A model generated the notes under the pieces. It saw only the letters and a list, made by a program, of their open reading frames with translations. It was not told where the DNA came from and ran no database searches. A DNA stretch of 30,961 nucleotides from a virus. How positions within the stretch are numbered: the stretch's first letter is position 1; each line of letters opens with the position of its first letter. A program made the position numbers and the translations under genes. Shown piece by piece: positions 19,092 to 30,317 of the stretch. The stretch spans positions 1-30,961 of IMG/VR virus record IMGVR_UViG_3300013014_000089; one strand, written 5' to 3'.

Positions 19092-21728
19092 TTAACCTCT
19101 AGTTGTTGCTTGTCCAAATCCACCAGATTTTAATATTGTTGTAGATAAAGCAGCATTAATTCTTTGACCATCCAGATTTACAGCTATACCACCATTTGCC
19201 ATCATTGAAGTTAAAATTTCAATTTTTTGCGCTACAACTTCTAATCCGGACTTTAATTCTGCTGTTTGTTTTTCTTTTACATCATTTGTTTTACTAAAAG
19301 TATCTACACCTTTAAAATCCATGTCAAGTTTTGGTAGTTCAATTCCTGAAAGATCTTTTAAAGCGTTAACGGCTATACCAATTCCATCGGCAGCCTGACT
19401 TAACAGTGTTAACTGTGATACAATTGCCGTTAACTGTGACGTTGGAAACGTCAACAAATTTTCTCCCAAGTTTTTCATTGAAATCGACAAACTTCCAATT
19501 CCAGCCGCAGCCTTTGATAATTTAAAAAATCCAATATTTGCGATTGCAACAAGACTTGTAGCTACACTTGTTATAACACTAGGCAGTGCCTGAAATACAG
19601 ACAACATAGTGTCAAATGCTTTTATAATTACTCCACCCACTATTGATGCTAAACCCGTGAGAATTGATCCAATCAGTGATAGTGATGGAGTTACCATTTG
19701 TATAGCCTTAGCAAATCCTATAGCAGATAGTGATACTATACCAAGTGCAGCCGCAAACGCAAGAACACCAAGTTGTATTCCTGGAATCAACATTATGGCC
19801 CCCAATACTGCTAGTGAAACACCTAGTATTACTATTGATTTGGTAAACGCCATTATTTGTTCACCGCTTACATTTCCTAACATGCTAAATGCTTTTGCTA
19901 AACCAAACACTGCCAGTGTCAATACACCAAGTATTATTGCCATTTTTATTATATCACCTGGTTTTATACTTCCAAGAGCAGTTGCCATTGATGTGATTCC
20001 CCTACCAATACCTTCCAGTCCTTTTCCTATTCCTTCTCCGATTGATTGTCCCATTTTACCCACTATATCTCCCAGAAAATCCAATACAGCTTTTCCTCCA
20101 TATTTTAATGCAAAAAAAGCGGCTGTTAATAAACCTATAGCTGTAACACTGATAGCAGTCCATTTTCCAATTGGATCGCCAATGTTTGTTATATAATTAA
20201 TTAATTTAAAAAAACCAATTTGAACAAGCATTATTGCATCATATAGAGGTTTAAGTAATTTACCCAAATTTAATAACGCTTGTTCTTTAACTTGTGCCAA
20301 CTTAGCAGACTCAGCCTCTGCCGTTTTTTGATCCATTAACAACTGCAATTCTTGTTTTCTAGCATCAAGTCCACCTTTTTGAAGAACCTTTAATTCTTCT
20401 TGAGCTTTCTTCATTTTTGCAGCTTCTTTTGGAAACATTCTTTCTGCCTCAAGAAGATTTTTCTTTTGAGTTTGAATCTTTTGTAATTCACCAAAATCTT
20501 TACCGGTTACTTCGGATAAAGCTTTACGTTGTATATAATTTAATTTGTCTAAATCGCCAACTTTTTCAACTTCTTTTTGTAAAGCTTTTTCCGACCCAAT
20601 CAAATCTCCAGCAAATGCCAGTCTACGGGACTCATTAAAATTGACGTTTTTACCTAATAAAGCACTTAATTTTAATTCAGCTCCAATAGAACTTTCAAAA
20701 CTTAAAAGTGACTCAGCTGATTTTGCTGCTGAATCTAAACTGGTACCAAGCTTTCTTGCTTCTGCTGCCTGTTTAATCAGCTCCGTAGTGTTACCTTTAA
20801 AAATTAAACGCACTCCGCTACTCGCACTTGCAACATCTTTCATCACTTTTCCCATTGGAACACCGGCCGCTTCAGCGGCTTTTGAAGCAATTGCGGTCAT
20901 AGCTTCTTGAGCCATAACCGATGTACCTCCTACTTCAGCCAGTGTGGCCTGGAACTTTGTAGCTTCATCTACAGTCAAACCTGTCAAACGACTGATATTA
21001 GCTGATTCTTTACCAATTGAAGCTAATTGAGAGTCCGTTAATGAGTACTCGTTACGAAGTGATGTTACCGATTTTAATATTTCTTGATTACTAGCAAGAT
21101 TTGTACCCAGACCATTGTTAATTTTCTGAATAGCATCGTATTGTCCATTTATCTCATCCTTGGTAGTTCCTTGTGCTTTAGCTTCGTCACTCAACATCTT
21201 GTCATACTTCTCACCAAGAGACATTATTGTCATATAAATGGATTGAATTTTTTCAAGATTCTCTTTTTGTTCACCCAACGATTTTGCAGTCTCAGTTGCC
21301 GATCTAGCATTACGACCTGCTTCGCCAGCAATTTTTCCAAGAGACTTTCTCTGTGTTTCCAAATTATCAGCTGTTAGTCTCTGTAGAATTAAGTTTTGTT
21401 CAGATGTACGACGAGTGCGTGCGGACAAATCATTTCTTAACTTTATCTGTTCATTAATCTTGTATATATCCGATATTGCTCTTTGTTGAATTGATCTGTA
21501 ACTTTGCGCTTGATTTTGTAATGCAGTTTGTTCAACGCTTATTTTAGCTAAAGCTTTATCCAATAAAGCAGCAGGTTCAACCCAATTACCCATTTTTTTA
21601 CCAAGATCATCAGCTGATTTTGTTAAAGACCCTAACTTTTTAACGCCATTATCGATTTCTTTTTGGAAATCAACAAGTACTTTAGCAAGTTCTCCTCTTA
21701 GATTTCTAATATCACTTGTATCTGCCAT
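19092..21728 (-). CDS. Tail tape measure protein
   Basis: An 878-residue protein with the normal layout of a tape measure: Lys/Glu/Gln-rich coiled coil (1-220), a Ser/Ala-rich middle (220-400), a second coiled coil (400-490, many KKAQEELKVL-type stretches), then hydrophobic helices (WTAISVTAIGLLTAAFFAL, MAIILGVLTLAVFGLA, SIVILGVSLAVLGAIMLIP, and more to about 720) that may act at the host membrane during DNA ejection. The mid region SLTDSQLASIGKESANISRL is typical of these proteins. It lies directly after the gp26-like gene with its start-less extension, where tape measures usually follow tail-assembly chaperones. It is short for a T4-size tail, so the tail may be of modest length; this is inferred from the tape-measure rule only. 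Confidence 0.9.
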   Translation of the reverse strand: MADTSDIRNLRGELAKVLVDFQKEIDNGVKKLGSLTKSADDLGKKMGNWVEPAALLDKALAKISVEQTALQNQAQSYRSIQQRAISDIYKINEQIKLRNDLSARTRRTSEQNLILQRLTADNLETQRKSLGKIAGEAGRNARSATETAKSLGEQKENLEKIQSIYMTIMSLGEKYDKMLSDEAKAQGTTKDEINGQYDAIQKINNGLGTNLASNQEILKSVTSLRNEYSLTDSQLASIGKESANISRLTGLTVDEATKFQATLAEVGGTSVMAQEAMTAIASKAAEAAGVPMGKVMKDVASASSGVRLIFKGNTTELIKQAAEARKLGTSLDSAAKSAESLLSFESSIGAELKLSALLGKNVNFNESRRLAFAGDLIGSEKALQKEVEKVGDLDKLNYIQRKALSEVTGKDFGELQKIQTQKKNLLEAERMFPKEAAKMKKAQEELKVLQKGGLDARKQELQLLMDQKTAEAESAKLAQVKEQALLNLGKLLKPLYDAIMLVQIGFFKLINYITNIGDPIGKWTAISVTAIGLLTAAFFALKYGGKAVLDFLGDIVGKMGQSIGEGIGKGLEGIGRGITSMATALGSIKPGDIIKMAIILGVLTLAVFGLAKAFSMLGNVSGEQIMAFTKSIVILGVSLAVLGAIMLIPGIQLGVLAFAAALGIVSLSAIGFAKAIQMVTPSLSLIGSILTGLASIVGGVIIKAFDTMLSVFQALPSVITSVATSLVAIANIGFFKLSKAAAGIGSLSISMKNLGENLLTFPTSQLTAIVSQLTLLSQAADGIGIAVNALKDLSGIELPKLDMDFKGVDTFSKTNDVKEKQTAELKSGLEVVAQKIEILTSMMANGGIAVNLDGQRINAALSTTILKSGGFGQATTRG

Positions 21729-21754: not shown

Positions 21755-21982
21755 TTATCTAAAACTAGGTCTATCTATTTTGCCTGAACGTGATGGCTGT
21801 GAAGTAGATGCATTTTGCGCACGCGCTTCTTTTTCTTTAGTATCTATTAATTTTTTGTAATAAAAATTACGAAGATGTACAGGCAAACTATATACTTCGC
21901 TTGGAAAAAACCCCCCGTTACCGTAGTAACAGAGATCAAATATTATTTGCTGTATATAGAGCTTATACTCTGGAGTCAGGCC
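21755..21982 (-). CDS. Start-less +1-frame extension of the gp26-like protein (gp51/chaperone-like)
   Basis: This frame is open from 21997 to the stop at 21755-21757 and contains no ATG or GTG in frame; a TGA lies at 21998-22000. It encodes about 75 residues after the shift point, GLTPEYKLYIQQIIFDLCYY then GNGGFFPSEVYSLPVHLRNF and YYKKLIDTKEKEAR, ending in a Ser/Arg-rich tail. The G-G-F-x-x-x-E-V-Y-x-L-P-x-x-L-R-x-F-Y-x-K-L pattern is protein-like and resembles small T4-like baseplate hub assembly factors and tail-assembly chaperone second domains. It ends 26 nt before the tape measure ATG. A ribosome on the gp26-like gene could enter it by a +1 (or -2) slip at the T7 run, giving a fusion of about 339 residues. 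Alternatives are a rare TTG/CTG start or a homopolymer assembly error. Confidence 0.7.
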   Translation of the reverse strand, partial: GLTPEYKLYIQQIIFDLCYYGNGGFFPSEVYSLPVHLRNFYYKKLIDTKEKEARAQNASTSQPSRSGKIDRPSFR

Positions 21983-22775
21983 AAAAAAACTGGACAGTCA
22001 TTGGCACTGCTGCCCTTTCTTCGGCGCTGCACTCTTTGCAGCAAAAATCAAATGTTGAATTAATGTCAGGAGTAGACTCACGGATGTATTGTCGTAATGC
22101 TAAACTGTCACGACTTTGCATACCATCAACAAATGATTTAATTTTAGCTGGATCAGAATCTCCATTTACTTCAATAATCATTCGCTTTAAACGAGATGTT
22201 ACTTCGGTTGAATTAAATTTGTTAATTTTTAACATTGATACATTCTCTTTTTCTATTAATTTTTCATCATCATCTGTTAAAAATTTAAATTTTATAGAGA
22301 CTTTTGAATTGGGTAATGTATAATCAAAAGCATTTGTGCCTTTTTGAAAATTAGATTCGTCCAACTCTTTTTCTTTTAACTCACCTAAATCTACATTTAC
22401 TTTATTTACAACTTGACATTTTGGACACGTAACGTCAACTGGACCGTAATTATCGCCATATGCTAATCGTCTAGCTGCAAATATTAAAGCATTTTTATCG
22501 CCCGTCAACAAATTATTTAATTTTATGGATTTGTCTACTAAAAGAGATTCTAGAAGTTTGTCGATAGCTATACCTTTTTTCAACAAATTGGGACTGGTAA
22601 GAATATCTTCTTCTTTTGCAGTCATCATTTTCATATCAATATAACCCAAACTTAGTGGATCATTATCAGAATAAAAATAACCTTTGCTTGGTAAATCAAT
22701 TCGTTCCGATGGATATGAAGTGGATTGTGATTCTTTTTGTACAGCACTACGTGTAATTATAATTTCGTCATTCAT
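21963..22775 (-). CDS. 26: T4 gp26-like baseplate hub / tail assembly protein (zinc-ribbon type)
   Basis: The 270-residue protein follows the T4_baseplate (gp26) family pattern: LPSKGYFYSDNDPLSLGYID, then MTAKEEDILTSPNLLKKG, IDKLLESLL, LLTGDKNALIFAARRLAYG and a zinc-ribbon half VTCPKC (C117, C120). A second cysteine group FDFCCKEC (C245/C246, C249) near the end probably completes the zinc site. In T4, gp26 takes part in hub assembly with gp51, gp27 and gp29. Here the gene sits just before the tape measure, the place of tail-assembly chaperones in other phages. The last codons read CAG TTT TTT TGG, and the start-less next frame is entered at this T run. No SD sequence is present. Confidence 0.85.
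   Translation of the reverse strand: MNDEIIITRSAVQKESQSTSYPSERIDLPSKGYFYSDNDPLSLGYIDMKMMTAKEEDILTSPNLLKKGIAIDKLLESLLVDKSIKLNNLLTGDKNALIFAARRLAYGDNYGPVDVTCPKCQVVNKVNVDLGELKEKELDESNFQKGTNAFDYTLPNSKVSIKFKFLTDDDEKLIEKENVSMLKINKFNSTEVTSRLKRMIIEVNGDSDPAKIKSFVDGMQSRDSLALRQYIRESTPDINSTFDFCCKECSAEERAAVPMTVQFFWPDSRV
21983..21989 (-). other. T7 slippery run, candidate programmed frameshift site
   Basis: Seven T on the minus strand (A at 21983-21989) within codons TTT TTT TGG of the gp26-like gene. A +1 slip of the second TTT, or a -2 slip, moves ribosomes into the start-less frame that begins GGC CTG ACT. The zero frame stops 18 nt later at 21963. RNA polymerase slippage on the homopolymer would have the same effect. 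Confidence 0.6.
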
Positions 22776-22839: not shown

Positions 22840-23751
22840 CTATACATTTTTCAGTGAATCTTTTTTACCAATTACCATATTTTTCTTTACTTGTACATTT
22901 AATTTGGCTTGATCTTTTTCTTCTGGAGACTGTGCTGAATTGGCTACCGATTCAGCGTTTTTAAGTTCTTCTTCCGCAGCTACAAGTTCTGCATTTTTAA
23001 GATCTAATGTTGCATTTTTAAGATCCGCTGTTAATTTATCTACTTTTTCTTTGGCGGAATTTATTTTAGCTTCATCTTCTTTTAAGATACTCACAATCAA
23101 TTTCTTTAATAGCTTCTTTTGCGTTTCTGTCAATCCAGTAGCGGAAACACCTAATTTGTTATTCATAATATTATATACAGTATCATCATATTTACCAAAC
23201 AAATCTTTAACAAAAGACTTTTTTAGCTGTGGAGTTAAATTAACATATTGAGATCGCAATTGACTAGCACTTCTAGCAGGCATTCCCAATATCGTAAAAT
23301 CAGTGGTTGGTACAGTGTCAATATATCCGTGAGTTATAGCTGGTTGTAGTTTATCTAAGTTCTTAGGAATTGGCTGTAAATAAGCTGGCGATCCATCTTT
23401 TTTAGCAAATCTACTAAATCTCGGATCCTCAGTCATATCTTTTTCACTAACCGCAAAAATAATACTATCACGATTAATATCAATAGGAATTTGCGCAACC
23501 AAACTCTGTAGGTTATAATTGTTTTTTACTTTAATTATTTTGTTAACAGGTACCCCAGTTAAAGTCATCATTTTGACTTTTTCATCAAAACTAAATGGCG
23601 ACTTAGGCAGTTCAACTACATCGGTAGTTGTTATATAAACATCGTTACCACCATATTTACTGCTTAAATAATTGTAAACTCCTTTATGTCCTTTATGAAA
23701 AGGATGAAATCTACCTGGGTATATTACAAATATTTTTTTGCCTAGTTCCAT
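22840..23751 (-). CDS. Nucleotidyltransferase (HxGH cytidylyl/NMN adenylyltransferase-like) with coiled-coil tail
   Basis: The N-terminal 190 residues have the class I cytidylyltransferase/adenylyltransferase fold: YPGRFHPFHKGH with the HxGH motif at 19-22, strands IFVIYP and DVYITTTD, and a later GMPARSASQLRSQ that fits the ISSTxxR nucleotide-binding motif. The family includes NMN adenylyltransferase, so NAD metabolism is one guess, but substrate cannot be read from the sequence. Residues 205-300 are a Lys/Glu/Ala-rich coiled coil with repeated DLKNA/ELKNAE units, unusual for a metabolic enzyme and suggestive of oligomerisation or a virion link. The gene is placed between tail tube and gp26-like genes. 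Confidence 0.8.
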   Translation of the reverse strand: MELGKKIFVIYPGRFHPFHKGHKGVYNYLSSKYGGNDVYITTTDVVELPKSPFSFDEKVKMMTLTGVPVNKIIKVKNNYNLQSLVAQIPIDINRDSIIFAVSEKDMTEDPRFSRFAKKDGSPAYLQPIPKNLDKLQPAITHGYIDTVPTTDFTILGMPARSASQLRSQYVNLTPQLKKSFVKDLFGKYDDTVYNIMNNKLGVSATGLTETQKKLLKKLIVSILKEDEAKINSAKEKVDKLTADLKNATLDLKNAELVAAEEELKNAESVANSAQSPEEKDQAKLNVQVKKNMVIGKKDSLKNV

Positions 23752-23810: not shown

Positions 23811-24302
23811 TCAATACTGTAAAATGCAATAATCCATCTGTACAGTCAAGCTGATTGTAACAGCTTCACCATCATTACTCCAATCCATATCTCCAAAAGA
23901 AGCTTCAGTAATAAAGCATCCACGTAGACTCCATTCTTCAACTTTATCGCCCACTGGACCAAGAACGTTAATAGTAAGATCTTTTTTATAGAAATCTTGA
24001 TAACCATCACGTCCAGTTACGGATTCATGATGCAAACGTACCCACTCCATTACTGCTTGAGCGCCACTTGGTACAATTGGATCATACAATTCCATTGTAA
24101 TTGATTGCCAGACACTCTTTCCTTTATAGAATGTCTTGATATTGATATGATCAAGTTCTTTTGATGATTGACTTAGTTTTGGTCTATCAGTCTTCTTGAT
24201 GATAAAAGATGGAATGCCGTCAACGTACAAAATAAACCTATTTTTAACTTTTGGTTCAAATGCTGTTGCGAATATTTCGTTTGGATTTAGTAGTTCTGCC
24301 AT
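23811..24302 (-). CDS. 19: Tail tube protein, T4 gp19-like
   Basis: A 163-residue protein of the phage T4 gp19 tube family. Family features include KNRFILYVDGIPSFIIKKTD, then DRPKLSQSS, NIKTFYKGKSVWQSITMELY, DPIVPSGAQAVMEWVR, LTINVLGPVGDKVEEWSLRG and ITEASFGDMDW with final ITV-type strands. It forms the inner tube through which DNA passes, inside the sheath. Length equals that of T4 gp19 (163 aa). Its own terminator downstream and candidate promoter upstream fit a strongly expressed, single-gene transcript. The sheath gene, usually next to it, is not in this window; the neighbour on the other side is the homing endonuclease, so the gap upstream may reflect insertion. Confidence 0.88.
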   Translation of the reverse strand: MAELLNPNEIFATAFEPKVKNRFILYVDGIPSFIIKKTDRPKLSQSSKELDHINIKTFYKGKSVWQSITMELYDPIVPSGAQAVMEWVRLHHESVTGRDGYQDFYKKDLTINVLGPVGDKVEEWSLRGCFITEASFGDMDWSNDGEAVTISLTVQMDYCILQY

Positions 24303-24404: not shown

Positions 24405-25970
24405 ATGAGTCAGTTTAAAAAAAATCCAGAATTTGTTGACAAAGTGTGTAACACATGTAAGAACACGTATCAAATTTCTTTTTATAAAAGAAAAACTTCT
24501 GTTTATTGCAGCAAAAAATGTTCGAATGCAAATGAAGATGTATTAACTAAAATGAGAACGTCTCAGAAAAAGACGTATGATGAAAAATATAATGGTTTGC
24601 ATCCAATGCAAACAGATAAGACAAAAGAAAATTTAAAAAGTTCTTTATTGGATAAATACGGCGTAACAAGTTATAGTAAACTAACAGAGTACAAAGAAAA
24701 AGTAAAGTCAACATCTATTGAAAAATATGGTGTTGAGAATTATTCACAAACAACTGAATTTAAGCGTAGATTTAAAAAATCATGTTTAGCTAAATACGGA
24801 GTGGATAATCCGATGAAATCGCCTGACATTAAAGAAAAAGTCAAAAACACATGTGTTGAAAAATACGGCGTAGAGTGTTATTCAAAGTCAATGTCAAGTA
24901 TTTCACAACATCATGATCTAACATATTCTAAAATAATAAAGTTTCCAAATATGTTGCCTTTATTTACCCGAGATGAATTTTACGGGGTGACAAAAAATAT
25001 TCATTATAAATTTCAGTGCATCAGATGTGATGCAATTGTTTCTATAGATCTTCAAGATGGAAATGTGCCTCTATGTGTAAATTGTGACAAATTGAACACT
25101 AGCTTTGCACAAAAAGAAATATACGAGTATATTAAAACATATGTAAATAAAAAAATATTGTTAAACGATAGAAATTTGATTTATCCAAAAGAAGTCGATA
25201 TTTATATTCCAGATTTAAATTTAGCAATTGAATATAATAGTTTCTATTACCACACAGAAATAAGTGGTAACAAAAACAAACACTATCATTTGCGTAAACT
25301 GCAATCCACTCTTTTAAAAGGAGTTACGCTTATACAAATATTCGAACACGAATGGTCAAATAAAAAACCGATTATTCAATCCGTGTTACGTAACAAATTA
25401 AATAGTTTTGATCAAAAAATATACGCACGTAACTGTATTATTAAAGAATTAACCGCATTCGAATGTAATGTTTTTTTGAATAATAATCATATTCAAGGAA
25501 GTGACCATTCAAGTATTAGAATCGGTCTGTATTGTAATGGTGAATTGGTTTCTGTTATGACATTTGTTAAATCTAGATACGATAAAAAAATCCAATATGA
25601 AATGTCTAGATTTTGTAATAAATTAAATTATAAAATAACAGGGGGCGCCTCTAAACTATTTAAGTATTTTGTTACAAAGTATTCGCCAATTTCAGTGTGT
25701 AGTTATAATGACCGTAGATATTTTGACGGCGGTGTTTATGAAAAATTAAACTTTACAATTACAAACAATACATCACCGTGTTATTTTTATATCAAAAATA
25801 AAAATTTATATAACCGAATGAATTTCCAAAAACACAAGCTTAAAAAATTACTAAGTTCTTACGATCCTTTGTTATCAGAATGGGAAAATATGAAATTAAA
25901 CGGTTATGATAGAATTTGGGATTGTGGCAACGGTAAATGGGTTTTTACAAATACCAATGTTACTCACTAG
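24405..25970 (+). CDS. Homing endonuclease, Vsr-like (EDxHD) nuclease with KYGV repeats and zinc motifs
   Basis: This is the only plus-strand gene. The 521-residue product begins with a zinc-finger-like set (C15, C18, C35, C39). Four KYGV repeats follow about 23 residues apart (near 84, 107, 130 and 154), of the kind used as DNA-binding modules in phage homing endonucleases. A second CxxC pair set lies at C205/C208 and C224/C227. The catalytic part has VDIYIPDLNLAIEYNSFYYH (D265, E276), then KHYHLRKL and TLIQIFEHEW, matching Vsr-like/EDxHD endonucleases. A C-terminal domain from about 340 (CSYNDRRYFDGGVYEKLNF) occurs in related phage proteins. The gene is free-standing between the tube and HAD-fusion genes, and its last 11 bases overlap the convergent neighbour. 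It is probably selfish DNA that cuts an allele lacking it. Confidence 0.85.
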   Translation: MSQFKKNPEFVDKVCNTCKNTYQISFYKRKTSVYCSKKCSNANEDVLTKMRTSQKKTYDEKYNGLHPMQTDKTKENLKSSLLDKYGVTSYSKLTEYKEKVKSTSIEKYGVENYSQTTEFKRRFKKSCLAKYGVDNPMKSPDIKEKVKNTCVEKYGVECYSKSMSSISQHHDLTYSKIIKFPNMLPLFTRDEFYGVTKNIHYKFQCIRCDAIVSIDLQDGNVPLCVNCDKLNTSFAQKEIYEYIKTYVNKKILLNDRNLIYPKEVDIYIPDLNLAIEYNSFYYHTEISGNKNKHYHLRKLQSTLLKGVTLIQIFEHEWSNKKPIIQSVLRNKLNSFDQKIYARNCIIKELTAFECNVFLNNNHIQGSDHSSIRIGLYCNGELVSVMTFVKSRYDKKIQYEMSRFCNKLNYKITGGASKLFKYFVTKYSPISVCSYNDRRYFDGGVYEKLNFTITNNTSPCYFYIKNKNLYNRMNFQKHKLKKLLSSYDPLLSEWENMKLNGYDRIWDCGNGKWVFTNTNVTH

Positions 25971-27129
25971 ATAATTCTTTATCAGTTAATTGCGTAACTG
26001 TATCTCTTAGTTTATTAATATACCCAGTTGACCGCAACAGTTTGAATGCTAAATTTTCGCTGCTAAATTCCCCACTCTTATCTAAACCAGCTTGACGCAT
26101 ATCGTATATACGTTTAGTTAACTTCTTTATTTTATTGATATCTTGTTCTTGTATAGCCACATTAATCGATTGTACAAGTTGTTTGTACTTCTTTTTTATA
26201 GCATCTTTGTCAACTTTTATATCTTCGTGTTTTGGTTTTTTTACCCAAGTAGATTTCATCAAACTATATACGGATTGACTGTTATTAATCTCAGACTTGT
26301 CTTGAATATAAACTTCAACTGGATGATTGCCTATCTTGATATCATGTGATTGATTCCATTTGCTTTTTAAGCCGTCAACATAATTTTTAACTAACTCTTC
26401 ATCGTCGCCTATTTTATCAAAATCTACAACCAAGTGCAAATCTATATCGCTGGTTGGGGTCCAATTATATCCGGCAGTACTACCAAGAAAATATATGTCT
26501 TCCAATGGTACGGTCAATTCAGTATCCTTATAAAATGTATTAGCAACTTTTAAAAGTGTATTTAATACATTCGGTTTGATATCATCTTCAGTTGCCCATA
26601 TTGCTGGATTTAATATACTATTATAAATTCTATGCTTTTCTTTGAGTCCAAGTATTTCTTTTAATTGATTTATAGTATCAATTGAATTAGTATGAAGAAT
26701 TGCTTTACCACCAGCATTTATAAAATCATTCACAACATCTTCACGGTCATCTATTAATACACTATCAGCAGTTGCAAATTTAGATTTATCTTTTCTATTA
26801 GGCACTAAGTTCGCTTCAAATGTTATGCCTTTATCTTTAAGCCATTGTTGTTTGCCAATCTTTGATTTAGCATCAGCTGCATGACTTAGTATTTGTACAT
26901 TAGGAAAGCTATTTACAAAATTATAAAGCAATTTACCATCTTTCATCCATGGCATATTAGCATAATATTCAGGACTATTTTTATTTACCAACTTAAAACT
27001 ATTCTGCTTGCCATGTAAACTATCATAAGTATTTACAGATATTCCACCACTATAGCGCTTAAATTGAGCTTCCCAATCACTAAGCACTCCATCCATATCT
27101 ACATATATTTTGTAATCATTACTAATCAT
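25960..27129 (-). CDS. Fusion of HAD-type phosphatase and Pol-beta-like nucleotidyltransferase domains
   Basis: Residues 1-165 are a HAD hydrolase resembling 5'-nucleotidases: DMDGVLSDW with nucleophile D11 and acid D13, and the metal motif LIDDRED (D127, D128). Residues about 172-300 form a polymerase-beta-type nucleotidyltransferase: LNPAIW, then FLGSTAGYNWTPTSDIDLHL with G216-S217 and metal acids D228/D230, and HPVEVYIQD carrying the third acid. The C-terminal 90 residues are helical and basic. The NTase part looks like a family I have seen in T4-like phages with SDIDLH and YNWT motifs. Both active sites appear complete. Two opposed chemistries, phosphate removal and NMP addition, in one chain suggest nucleic-acid end processing or a nucleotide-modifying system, but substrate is unknown. 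Confidence 0.82.
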   Translation of the reverse strand: MISNDYKIYVDMDGVLSDWEAQFKRYSGGISVNTYDSLHGKQNSFKLVNKNSPEYYANMPWMKDGKLLYNFVNSFPNVQILSHAADAKSKIGKQQWLKDKGITFEANLVPNRKDKSKFATADSVLIDDREDVVNDFINAGGKAILHTNSIDTINQLKEILGLKEKHRIYNSILNPAIWATEDDIKPNVLNTLLKVANTFYKDTELTVPLEDIYFLGSTAGYNWTPTSDIDLHLVVDFDKIGDDEELVKNYVDGLKSKWNQSHDIKIGNHPVEVYIQDKSEINNSQSVYSLMKSTWVKKPKHEDIKVDKDAIKKKYKQLVQSINVAIQEQDINKIKKLTKRIYDMRQAGLDKSGEFSSENLAFKLLRSTGYINKLRDTVTQLTDKELSSE

Positions 27130-28791: not shown

Positions 28792-29271
28792 TTAGTTCCA
28801 TAGTTCTATATAGTACGTTCCTATCGATGGACCAACATTTGCTCCAATATTTATAGCTAAAAATCCTGCTTTAGTAGGATATAGAGATTGATTCGAATTG
28901 TTGGCTCCTTTACAGTTTGTAACTGTTAAAAACGTGATCGTGGACGAACCACCATAAACATATACTTTTGCACTTCCAGCTGCCGCTCCAATTCCAAGTG
29001 ACCCATCAATTTGAGTGGTCGTCGTAAAAAATGTAGTTGTAGATGTATTAGTAGAAAACATAATATTGGCGGCATTAGCTACAGGATCTTGATAAAATTT
29101 TAAAGTGTCTGACGTTACCTGTAGTGCCGGGCCCCCTCCTCCTTGCCAAGAACCATTATAATATGCATCACGGCCAAAATTAGATTTATCAGAGCCTCCG
29201 GAACTGATATAAGCATTACCAACTCTATAATATCCATTATCGGGGACAGTTGTATTTTGTAACGTTGCCAT
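28792..29271 (-). CDS. Fibre-like paralogue 3 of 3 (MATLxNTT family), 159 aa
   Basis: This shares with its two upstream neighbours an N-terminal signature (MATLQNTTVPDNGYYRVG), a DAYYNGSW motif, a GSLGIGAAAGSAKVYVYG segment and a C-terminal ending (NIGANVGPSIGTYYIELW). The LGxG-type segment resembles the beta-prism motif found before S74 chaperone domains in tail fibres, and the Gly/Ser/Thr/Tyr-rich, cysteine-poor make-up suits a beta-structured adhesin. This copy is the last of the tandem set and has a GGGG stretch near residue 45. It is probably a virion surface or receptor-binding module; no experimental role is known to me. Confidence 0.75.
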   Translation of the reverse strand: MATLQNTTVPDNGYYRVGNAYISSGGSDKSNFGRDAYYNGSWQGGGGPALQVTSDTLKFYQDPVANAANIMFSTNTSTTTFFTTTTQIDGSLGIGAAAGSAKVYVYGGSSTITFLTVTNCKGANNSNQSLYPTKAGFLAINIGANVGPSIGTYYIELWN

Positions 29272-29291
29272 ATATCAATTTAAATTTGTTA

Positions 29292-29771
29292 TTATGTCCA
29301 TAATTTTATATAATATGTTCCGGCACTCATTGAGCCAACAGACGATATATATATACCTAAAAATCCTCCAAAAGTTGCATATGTAGCTGTGCTGGTACTG
29401 CCATCACCTTCACAATTCGCTACTTCTAAAAACGGTTGAGATCCGCCGGAGCCCTGTATACGCATTTGCGCATTTGAATTTGCTCCACCAACTCCCAGAG
29501 TACCGTTAATATTAGTTGTGGGTGAATCTATATAAGTACTTGCTGGCGAAGTATTAAAAGGATTAGGAAATGTGGTTGAATTAGCATAAAAAAATAAAGT
29601 TGTGTTGTATAATTGTATAAATGGACCGCCTCCAATCCACGACCCATTGTAATAAGCATTGGTACCAAGATGTGAGTATGGTCCACCACTACTAATGTAA
29701 GTTACATCGGTACTAGTTCCAACTCTGTAAATGCCGTTCTGAGCAATAGTTGTATTTTTTAACGTTGCCAT
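29292..29771 (-). CDS. Fibre-like paralogue 2 of 3 (MATLxNTT family), 159 aa
   Basis: The middle copy of the tandem set. The N-terminus reads MATLKNTTIAQNGIYRVG, the mid part NAYYNGSWIGGG, then INGTLGVGGANSNAQMRIQG and a final SAGTYYIKLW. Relative to its neighbours the middle third (SHLGTNAYY to STYIDSPTTN) is the most diverged and the two ends are the most similar, as expected for modules that exchange tips while retaining docking ends. It is 20 nt from the next copy and 3 nt from the previous one, so the three are expressed together. Confidence 0.75.
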   Translation of the reverse strand: MATLKNTTIAQNGIYRVGTSTDVTYISSGGPYSHLGTNAYYNGSWIGGGPFIQLYNTTLFFYANSTTFPNPFNTSPASTYIDSPTTNINGTLGVGGANSNAQMRIQGSGGSQPFLEVANCEGDGSTSTATYATFGGFLGIYISSVGSMSAGTYYIKLWT

Positions 29772-29774
29772 ATA

Positions 29775-30317
29775 TTACGGTGTTCCCCACAGTCTTATAT
29801 AATACTGTCCTGCCGTTGGACCAACAGATGATCCAATTGTTATACCTAAAAAACCATAAAAAGCAGTAATACTTGCAAATTGAGCGTCAGCACTACCAAA
29901 TCCAGCACAGTTATTAACCGCTAAAAAGTTGTTGCTTGTACTGTTACCATCTATACGAATTTTTGAGAATCCACTATGTGCTGCGCCAACCCCCAGATAT
30001 TTACTGGTACCTGGACTCAGCTGAGTTGTTGTTGAAGAAATTACTGCACTCGATGGTTGAACGGAAAAACAAACAGTTCCAAATGTTGATCCATCGTTTG
30101 AAATAACATCAATAGTTGTGGGGCCTATTTGTATATTCATTCGATCAATAGCAGATCCAGACAGTATATACTGCGTACCATTCCAATAAGTGTTAAGACC
30201 AAACATAGCATATTCATTGCCCCCACTTGGCCCTCCACTAAAATATACAGCATTGGTATCATCTCCAACTCTATAGTAACCACCACCAGCTATGGTTGTA
30301 TTTTGTAACGTTGCCAT
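29775..30317 (-). CDS. Fibre-like paralogue 1 of 3 (MATLxNTT family), 180 aa
   Basis: The longest copy. It begins MATLQNTTIAGGGYYRVGDD, has LNTYWNGTQY in place of AYYNGSW, an extra about 20 residues in the middle (SAIDRMNIQIGPTTIDVISN), then KYLGVGAAHSGFSKIRIDG and VGPTAGQYYIRLW. It lies 15 nt after the S74 fibre gene and has a TATTTAT box 6 nt before its ATG, so it may start its own transcript. The family resemblance to segments just before S74 domains suggests that the set arose from fibre-gene pieces. Confidence 0.75.
   Translation of the reverse strand: MATLQNTTIAGGGYYRVGDDTNAVYFSGGPSGGNEYAMFGLNTYWNGTQYILSGSAIDRMNIQIGPTTIDVISNDGSTFGTVCFSVQPSSAVISSTTTQLSPGTSKYLGVGAAHSGFSKIRIDGNSTSNNFLAVNNCAGFGSADAQFASITAFYGFLGITIGSSVGPTAGQYYIRLWGTP

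Follow-up and report, generated by a model that had tools for sequence, protein, structure and literature searches.

A candidate +1 programmed frameshift linking a gp26-like gene to a start-less extension frame at a putative tail chaperone locus of a metagenomic virus

The gp26-like gene of a metagenomic virus (IMG/VR record IMGVR_UViG_3300013014_000089, positions 1 to 30,961; this whole stretch of 30,961 nt is here referred to as the window) and the start-less open frame at its 3′-end very likely constitute a single tail assembly chaperone (TAC) locus, in which a programmed +1 frameshift would give rise to a short protein, TAC-N, and an extended protein, TAC-NC. A probability of roughly 0.87 is assigned to this reading. 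The occurrence and the efficiency of the slip, the ratio of the two products and their role as chaperones are inferred from comparative sequence evidence. Programmed frameshifting had been proposed in an earlier note on this DNA and is supported by several conserved features: the two frames are related by +1, the extension has no start codon and is under purifying selection, and the pair is located ahead of the tape measure gene.

The minus strand encodes all elements of the locus. The gp26-like gene (21963..22775, 270 aa plus TAA), which encodes the short form TAC-N, was assigned to PF12322 (E=2.6e-13; 50.6 bits at a cut-off of 24.5) and to phrog_150 'baseplate hub' (E=7.9e-16). Its 3′-end reads GTG CCA ATG ACT GTC CAG TTT TTT TGG CCT GAC TCC AGA GTA TAA, and the run of seven T at 21983..21989 inside CAG TTT TTT TGG CCT, a motif conserved in relatives, is the proposed +1 slip site. 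Between this run (21989-21983) and the stop codon of the gene 17 nt were counted instead of the 18 nt given in the earlier note. The extension frame TAC-C (21755..21982, 75 codons plus TAA) is stop-free from 21997 to 21758, with an in-frame TGA at 22000-21998 before it and the TAA at 21757-21755 behind it; its sequence reads LSSFF-GLTPEYKLYIQQIIFDLCYYGNGGFFPSEVYSLPVHLRNFYYKKLIDTKEKEARAQ..., and it lies in +1, or equivalently in -2, relative to the gp26-like gene, while a -1 slip at this site would lead to a stop codon within two codons. The previous observation that this 75-codon frame has neither ATG nor GTG and is entered only at the T7 run within the gp26-like gene was confirmed. Translation with one base skipped yields the predicted frameshift product TAC-NC (21755..22775, 339 aa, junction TVQFFGLTPEYK), which is also supported by a natural fusion in a relative, L049.

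The next gene downstream (19092..21728, start at 21728) encodes a protein of 878 aa, which was identified as the tape measure protein by its position, its length and collinear homologues in relatives. The long ORF behind the equivalent frame pair of Microcystis phage Mel-JY01 matches this protein with a phmmer E-value of 6e-21, and the equivalent gene of Flavobacterium phage immuto is annotated as tail tape measure protein, its match to the window protein not being significant (E=0.014). A short ORF whose extension overlaps it in a different frame, with the tape measure gene following immediately, represents the arrangement of the gpG/gpGT type. The tail tube protein (gp19-like) is encoded at 23811..24302 on the minus strand (phrog_4542 tail tube protein, E=4.4e-28). 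It is separated from the gp26-like gene by a cytidylyltransferase-like gene (22840-23751, minus strand, PF01467 E=2e-6), which is lacking in immuto and Mel-JY01, where the tail tube and gp26-like genes are adjacent. An ORF of 521 aa with repeated (K/E)YGV..YS motifs, which looks like a mobile endonuclease insertion, is located on the opposite strand (24405-25970, plus strand), flanked by the tail tube gene and the gene at 25960-27129. Three tandem paralogues of 159, 159 and 180 aa with the N-termini MATLQNTT/MATLKNTT (28792-30317, minus strand) are probably tail fibre or structural repeats.

Regarding potential start codons, the extension frame of the window contains a single TTG, located at codon 38 of the open frame within the conserved core, and the extension frames of L023-L029 and L038 are devoid of ATG, GTG and TTG. 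In other relatives ATG and GTG are scattered when present, and none of them is a conserved start before the core. A conserved slippery site at the overlap combined with an extension without independent start is characteristic of the gpG/gpGT type, and both were found here. As an alternative, the extension could be an independent small protein, translated from a non-standard start codon or by re-initiation past the gp26 stop. The annotation of T4 gene 26 includes a product from an internal start, gp26′, and the equivalent ORF in LR756511 and XacN1 has its own ATG, in line with such a protein. Nevertheless, separate translation is considered extremely improbable, as the window's clade has no conserved ATG or GTG upstream of the core and no visible ribosome-binding site, the conserved residues FGL(T/P) (FGLTPEY) begin at the slip itself, ahead of the gp26-like stop, and a natural fusion exists. 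A clear ATG after the gp26 stop had been named in the earlier note as an outcome contrary to its proposal; in the window's clade no conserved one was found. In public annotations, only a 36-codon hypothetical ORF is given inside the extension of immuto, and the locus of Mel-JY01 is annotated as two hypothetical proteins.

Relatives of the locus were collected from IMG/VR by a scan with the gp26-like protein, which yielded 13 relatives, and a scan with the extension, which yielded 53 relatives. A profile scan of IMG/VR detected 342 relatives, 80 of which were kept as a second set; the two sets overlap in contigs. Extension-frame homologues are present in hundreds of contigs. The extension lies in +1 at 69 of the 70 loci of the first set (window included), which fall into 31 clusters when grouped at 90% nucleotide identity, and at all resolved, non-fused loci of the second set (78/78). 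Among the loci with a readable frame relation in both scans the sole exception to +1 is the natural in-frame fusion L049, a metagenomic relative in which TAC-N and the extension share one frame (positions 1-873). No second PF12322 gene was found in the L049 contig, which ends inside the fused gene, at its N-terminus. Altered T runs giving a simple fusion of this gene, likewise regarded in the earlier note as contrary to frameshifting, were found in none of the relatives.

The alternative frames of 13 window genes contain 1556 stop-free runs, none of which reaches 80 codons, the maximum being 67. Pairwise dN/dS values of the extension frame against the window are 0.06-0.5, with 0.008 for one close pair, and those of the gp26-like gene are similar. 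The Pro codon behind the slip is CCT in 31/31 clusters, compared to 23% CCT elsewhere, as would be expected from dual coding if Leu (C CTN) is read from it in the +1 frame as well. The extension frame is under purifying selection and is neither a product of chance nor of sequencing error. It might be objected that homopolymers are error-prone and that the window stems from a metagenomic virus record, so that the two frames would reflect a sequencing error or a decaying gene. The probability of this is negligible in view of the purifying selection on the extension frame and the recurrence of the seven T in many independently assembled contigs as well as in genomes of isolates, among them Mel-JY01.

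The slip site reads TTT TTT TGG CCT in nearly all of the 31 clusters, and wherever the second slip codon encodes Phe (29 clusters) it is TTT without exception. TTT is also favored for Phe elsewhere in these genes (85%), and its conservation alone is therefore weak evidence. Variant sites at which the +1 relation is kept are TTC TTT TGG in L030-L032, members of the well-supported subclade to which the window belongs, TTT TTT TAC in L050/L051 and others, TTT CTT TGG in Flavobacterium phage immuto, TTT CTA TTC in LR756508 and TTC TTT CGT in Streptococcus phage GXN1. At each of these variants the P-site tRNA would be able to re-pair after moving forward by one base. A -2 frameshift at the run of seven T, of the kind used by phage Mu, would lead to the same frame and add one Phe (peptide TVQFFFGLTPEYK). 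Shifts of -2 are able to reach a +1 frame (PMC5009743), and the seven T of the window would let the P-site tRNA-Phe re-pair two bases back; in L030-L032 (TTC TTT TGG) and GXN1 (TTC TTT CGT), however, the tRNA-Phe would land on TCT and mispair at the middle base, whereas a +1 move lands on TTT or TTC. A -2 shift is therefore seen as improbable. Transcriptional slippage on the homopolymer of seven T, resulting in a mixed mRNA pool of which a part is read through in frame, appears very improbable, since seven T are short for such a process and the arrangement is kept in L016, L030-L032 and L099 with runs of three or four T only. The maintenance of the +1 relation despite a broken T run in relatives thus argues against both mechanisms. 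With respect to the suggestion that a +1 or a -2 slip joins the frames, the frame relation itself was confirmed, while the relatives with broken runs favor the +1 slip.

Concerning stimulatory elements, a Shine-Dalgarno-like motif near the slip site was detected in none of the relatives examined except L065, and searches for conserved downstream RNA structures or Rfam elements at the slip site yielded none, which counts against the frameshift reading. Ten codons upstream of the slip codon (about 21990-22020 in the window) Arg is encoded by AGG in 17 clusters, nearly always where Arg occurs, while Arg codon pairs elsewhere agree only about one third of the time; this AGG is a possible stimulator or may reflect a dual constraint.

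In the proposed +1 mechanism, most ribosomes would stay in the frame of the gp26-like gene up to its TAA and synthesize TAC-N of 270 aa. In a minority of cases the tRNA-Phe on the second TTT (21986-21984) in the P site would slip by +1 and re-pair with the TTT at 21985-21983 before TGG is decoded. GGC would then be the next codon, and translation over 75 codons in this frame would result in TAC-NC of 339 aa with the predicted +1 peptide AAVPMTVQFFGLTPEYK. If lambda gpG/gpGT is taken as a model, the tape measure protein encoded downstream would be coated by numerous short and few long copies. The extension, a predicted helical hairpin, may recruit tail tube subunits, by analogy with lambda gpV, the partner presumably being the gp19-like protein encoded at 23811..24302. 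Both TAC-N and TAC-NC would be absent from the finished tail.

Both T4 gp26 and T4 gp51 belong to PF12322, like the gp26-like protein of the window. For the extension no significant match was obtained in Pfam, PHROGs and NCBIfam, and a comparison of profiles was therefore needed. The alignment of the extension profile with a profile of the T4 gp51 C-terminus, CP220 and seven -1 extensions reached an hhalign score of 34.4 (best of 200 column permutations, 15.0), and against the T4 gp51 C-terminus alone the score was 24.4 (best of 60 shuffles, 16.2). Judged by profile comparison, the extension is homologous to the extra C-terminus of T4 gp51 and to the extensions that cyanophages carry in -1. 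Due to this resemblance of the gp51 C-terminus, the two genes of T4 would correspond to what is apparently a single frameshifted gene in the phage analyzed here. One PF12322 gene each was counted in clade contigs of 303, 173 and 99 kb, the window itself comprising only 31 kb, and two each in T4 and Campylobacter phage CP220. In L102 and L107 (Campylobacter phage CP220) the PF12322 genes are located about 9 kb apart, one of them being short and one carrying a gp51-like tail, which resembles the situation in T4. The fold predicted for the natural fusion L049 (mean pLDDT 81, pTM 0.64) matched T4-like baseplate hub proteins in BFVD, with that of Bacillus phage SP-15 in first place, and no match to the L049 model was found in the PDB. 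Folded alone, the extension is a helical hairpin predicted with moderate confidence (pLDDT 75).

A homologous extension is found in -1 after the equivalent two codons in P-SSM2, Syn9, S-CRM01, HTVC008M, phiM12, KVP40 and PhiW-14, the sites of these seven phages being T TTT TTC or T TTT TTT. The window and its clade do not follow this pattern of a -1 extension at X XXY YYZ, as their extension lies in +1. The extensions of Streptococcus phage GXN1 and Listeria phage LIS04 match the profile and are in +1, and in LR756511 an extension matching the profile is open in -1, possibly with its own ATG. RM378 (+1) and XacN1 (-1) were considered as further members; their frames are open, but no profile match was obtained, a point against the proposed reading, and they were not counted. 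In a tree of TAC-N the window clade together with GXN1 and LIS04 is split from the cyanophage/T4/KVP40 side with 96/92 support, and the +1/-1 label changes few times. The root and the long branches of this tree are unsure, and hence it does not tell which shift direction is older. It seems fairly likely that one Phe-Phe codon pair in a homologous chaperone family serves -1 shifts on the cyanophage/KVP40/phiM12 side and +1 shifts in a large clade including the window, and that, taken together with the two-gene state of T4 and the in-frame fusion, the direction of the shift is evolutionarily replaceable while the pair of short and long proteins is kept.

According to an abstract by Vladimirov and coworkers from 2022, frameshifting is reportedly conserved in several T4-like groups, and the T4 forms are said to be genes 26 and 51. 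Like the two forms of the window locus, T4 gp26 and gp51 are both PF12322 proteins, and the longer gp51 has a C-terminus matching the extension; unlike them, they are encoded by two genes on opposite strands without a frameshift. The tail chaperones of tailed phages use -1, -2 or +1 shifts, and T4 was named as an exception in a review of 2016 (PMC5009743). Vladimirov, Gautam and Davidson (2022, Virology 566:9-15; as cited in PMC10274946) identified the tail chaperones of T4-like phages along with the two-gene solution, and the signal of that study is described in a later paper as -1 poly-T (PMC12846349). As far as these citing papers convey it, the T4-like TACs resemble the window in having a short and an extended form, the latter being a frameshift product in certain groups and encoded by a gene of its own in T4, and differ from it in their -1 signal (T TTT TTC / T TTT TTT in the seven phages), as opposed to +1 at TTT TTT TGG in the window clade. 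The attempt of the earlier note to connect the roles of gp26 and gp51 with the logic of gpG/gpGT is sound, given the shared PF12322 family and the match of the gp51 tail to the extension, but this link is already known from the 2022 publication and is not new here. A description of the +1 direction where homologues use -1 was not found in the literature consulted, in which the 2022 study is represented by its citing papers.

Lambda gpG/gpGT likewise consists of a short and a frameshift-extended chaperone encoded before the tape measure gene, with a shift of -1 in contrast to the window. The +1 frameshift site of prfB (RF2) is CUU UGA C. As proposed for the window, the P-site tRNA of prfB slips by +1 on a U-rich codon before a codon starting with UG, and L016 has CTT TGG C; differing from prfB, the window has a sense codon after the slip codon and no Shine-Dalgarno stimulator was seen. 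A shift that is 'very likely +1' was described for the tail chaperone of the haloarchaeal myovirus HSTV-2 (PMC5009743), which belongs to an unrelated phage group and is likened to the window by direction only.

The frameshift reading explains why the start-less frame was missed or broken up in the public annotations of immuto and Mel-JY01, and extends the T4-like tail chaperones by a +1 branch. With one protein pair that would be obtained via -1, via +1, from two genes (T4) or as a fusion, the family offers a clean evolutionary test. Shared by phages whose hosts include Bacteroidota and cyanobacteria, the uniform TTT TTT TGG without evident stimulator would provide a compact natural +1 signal.
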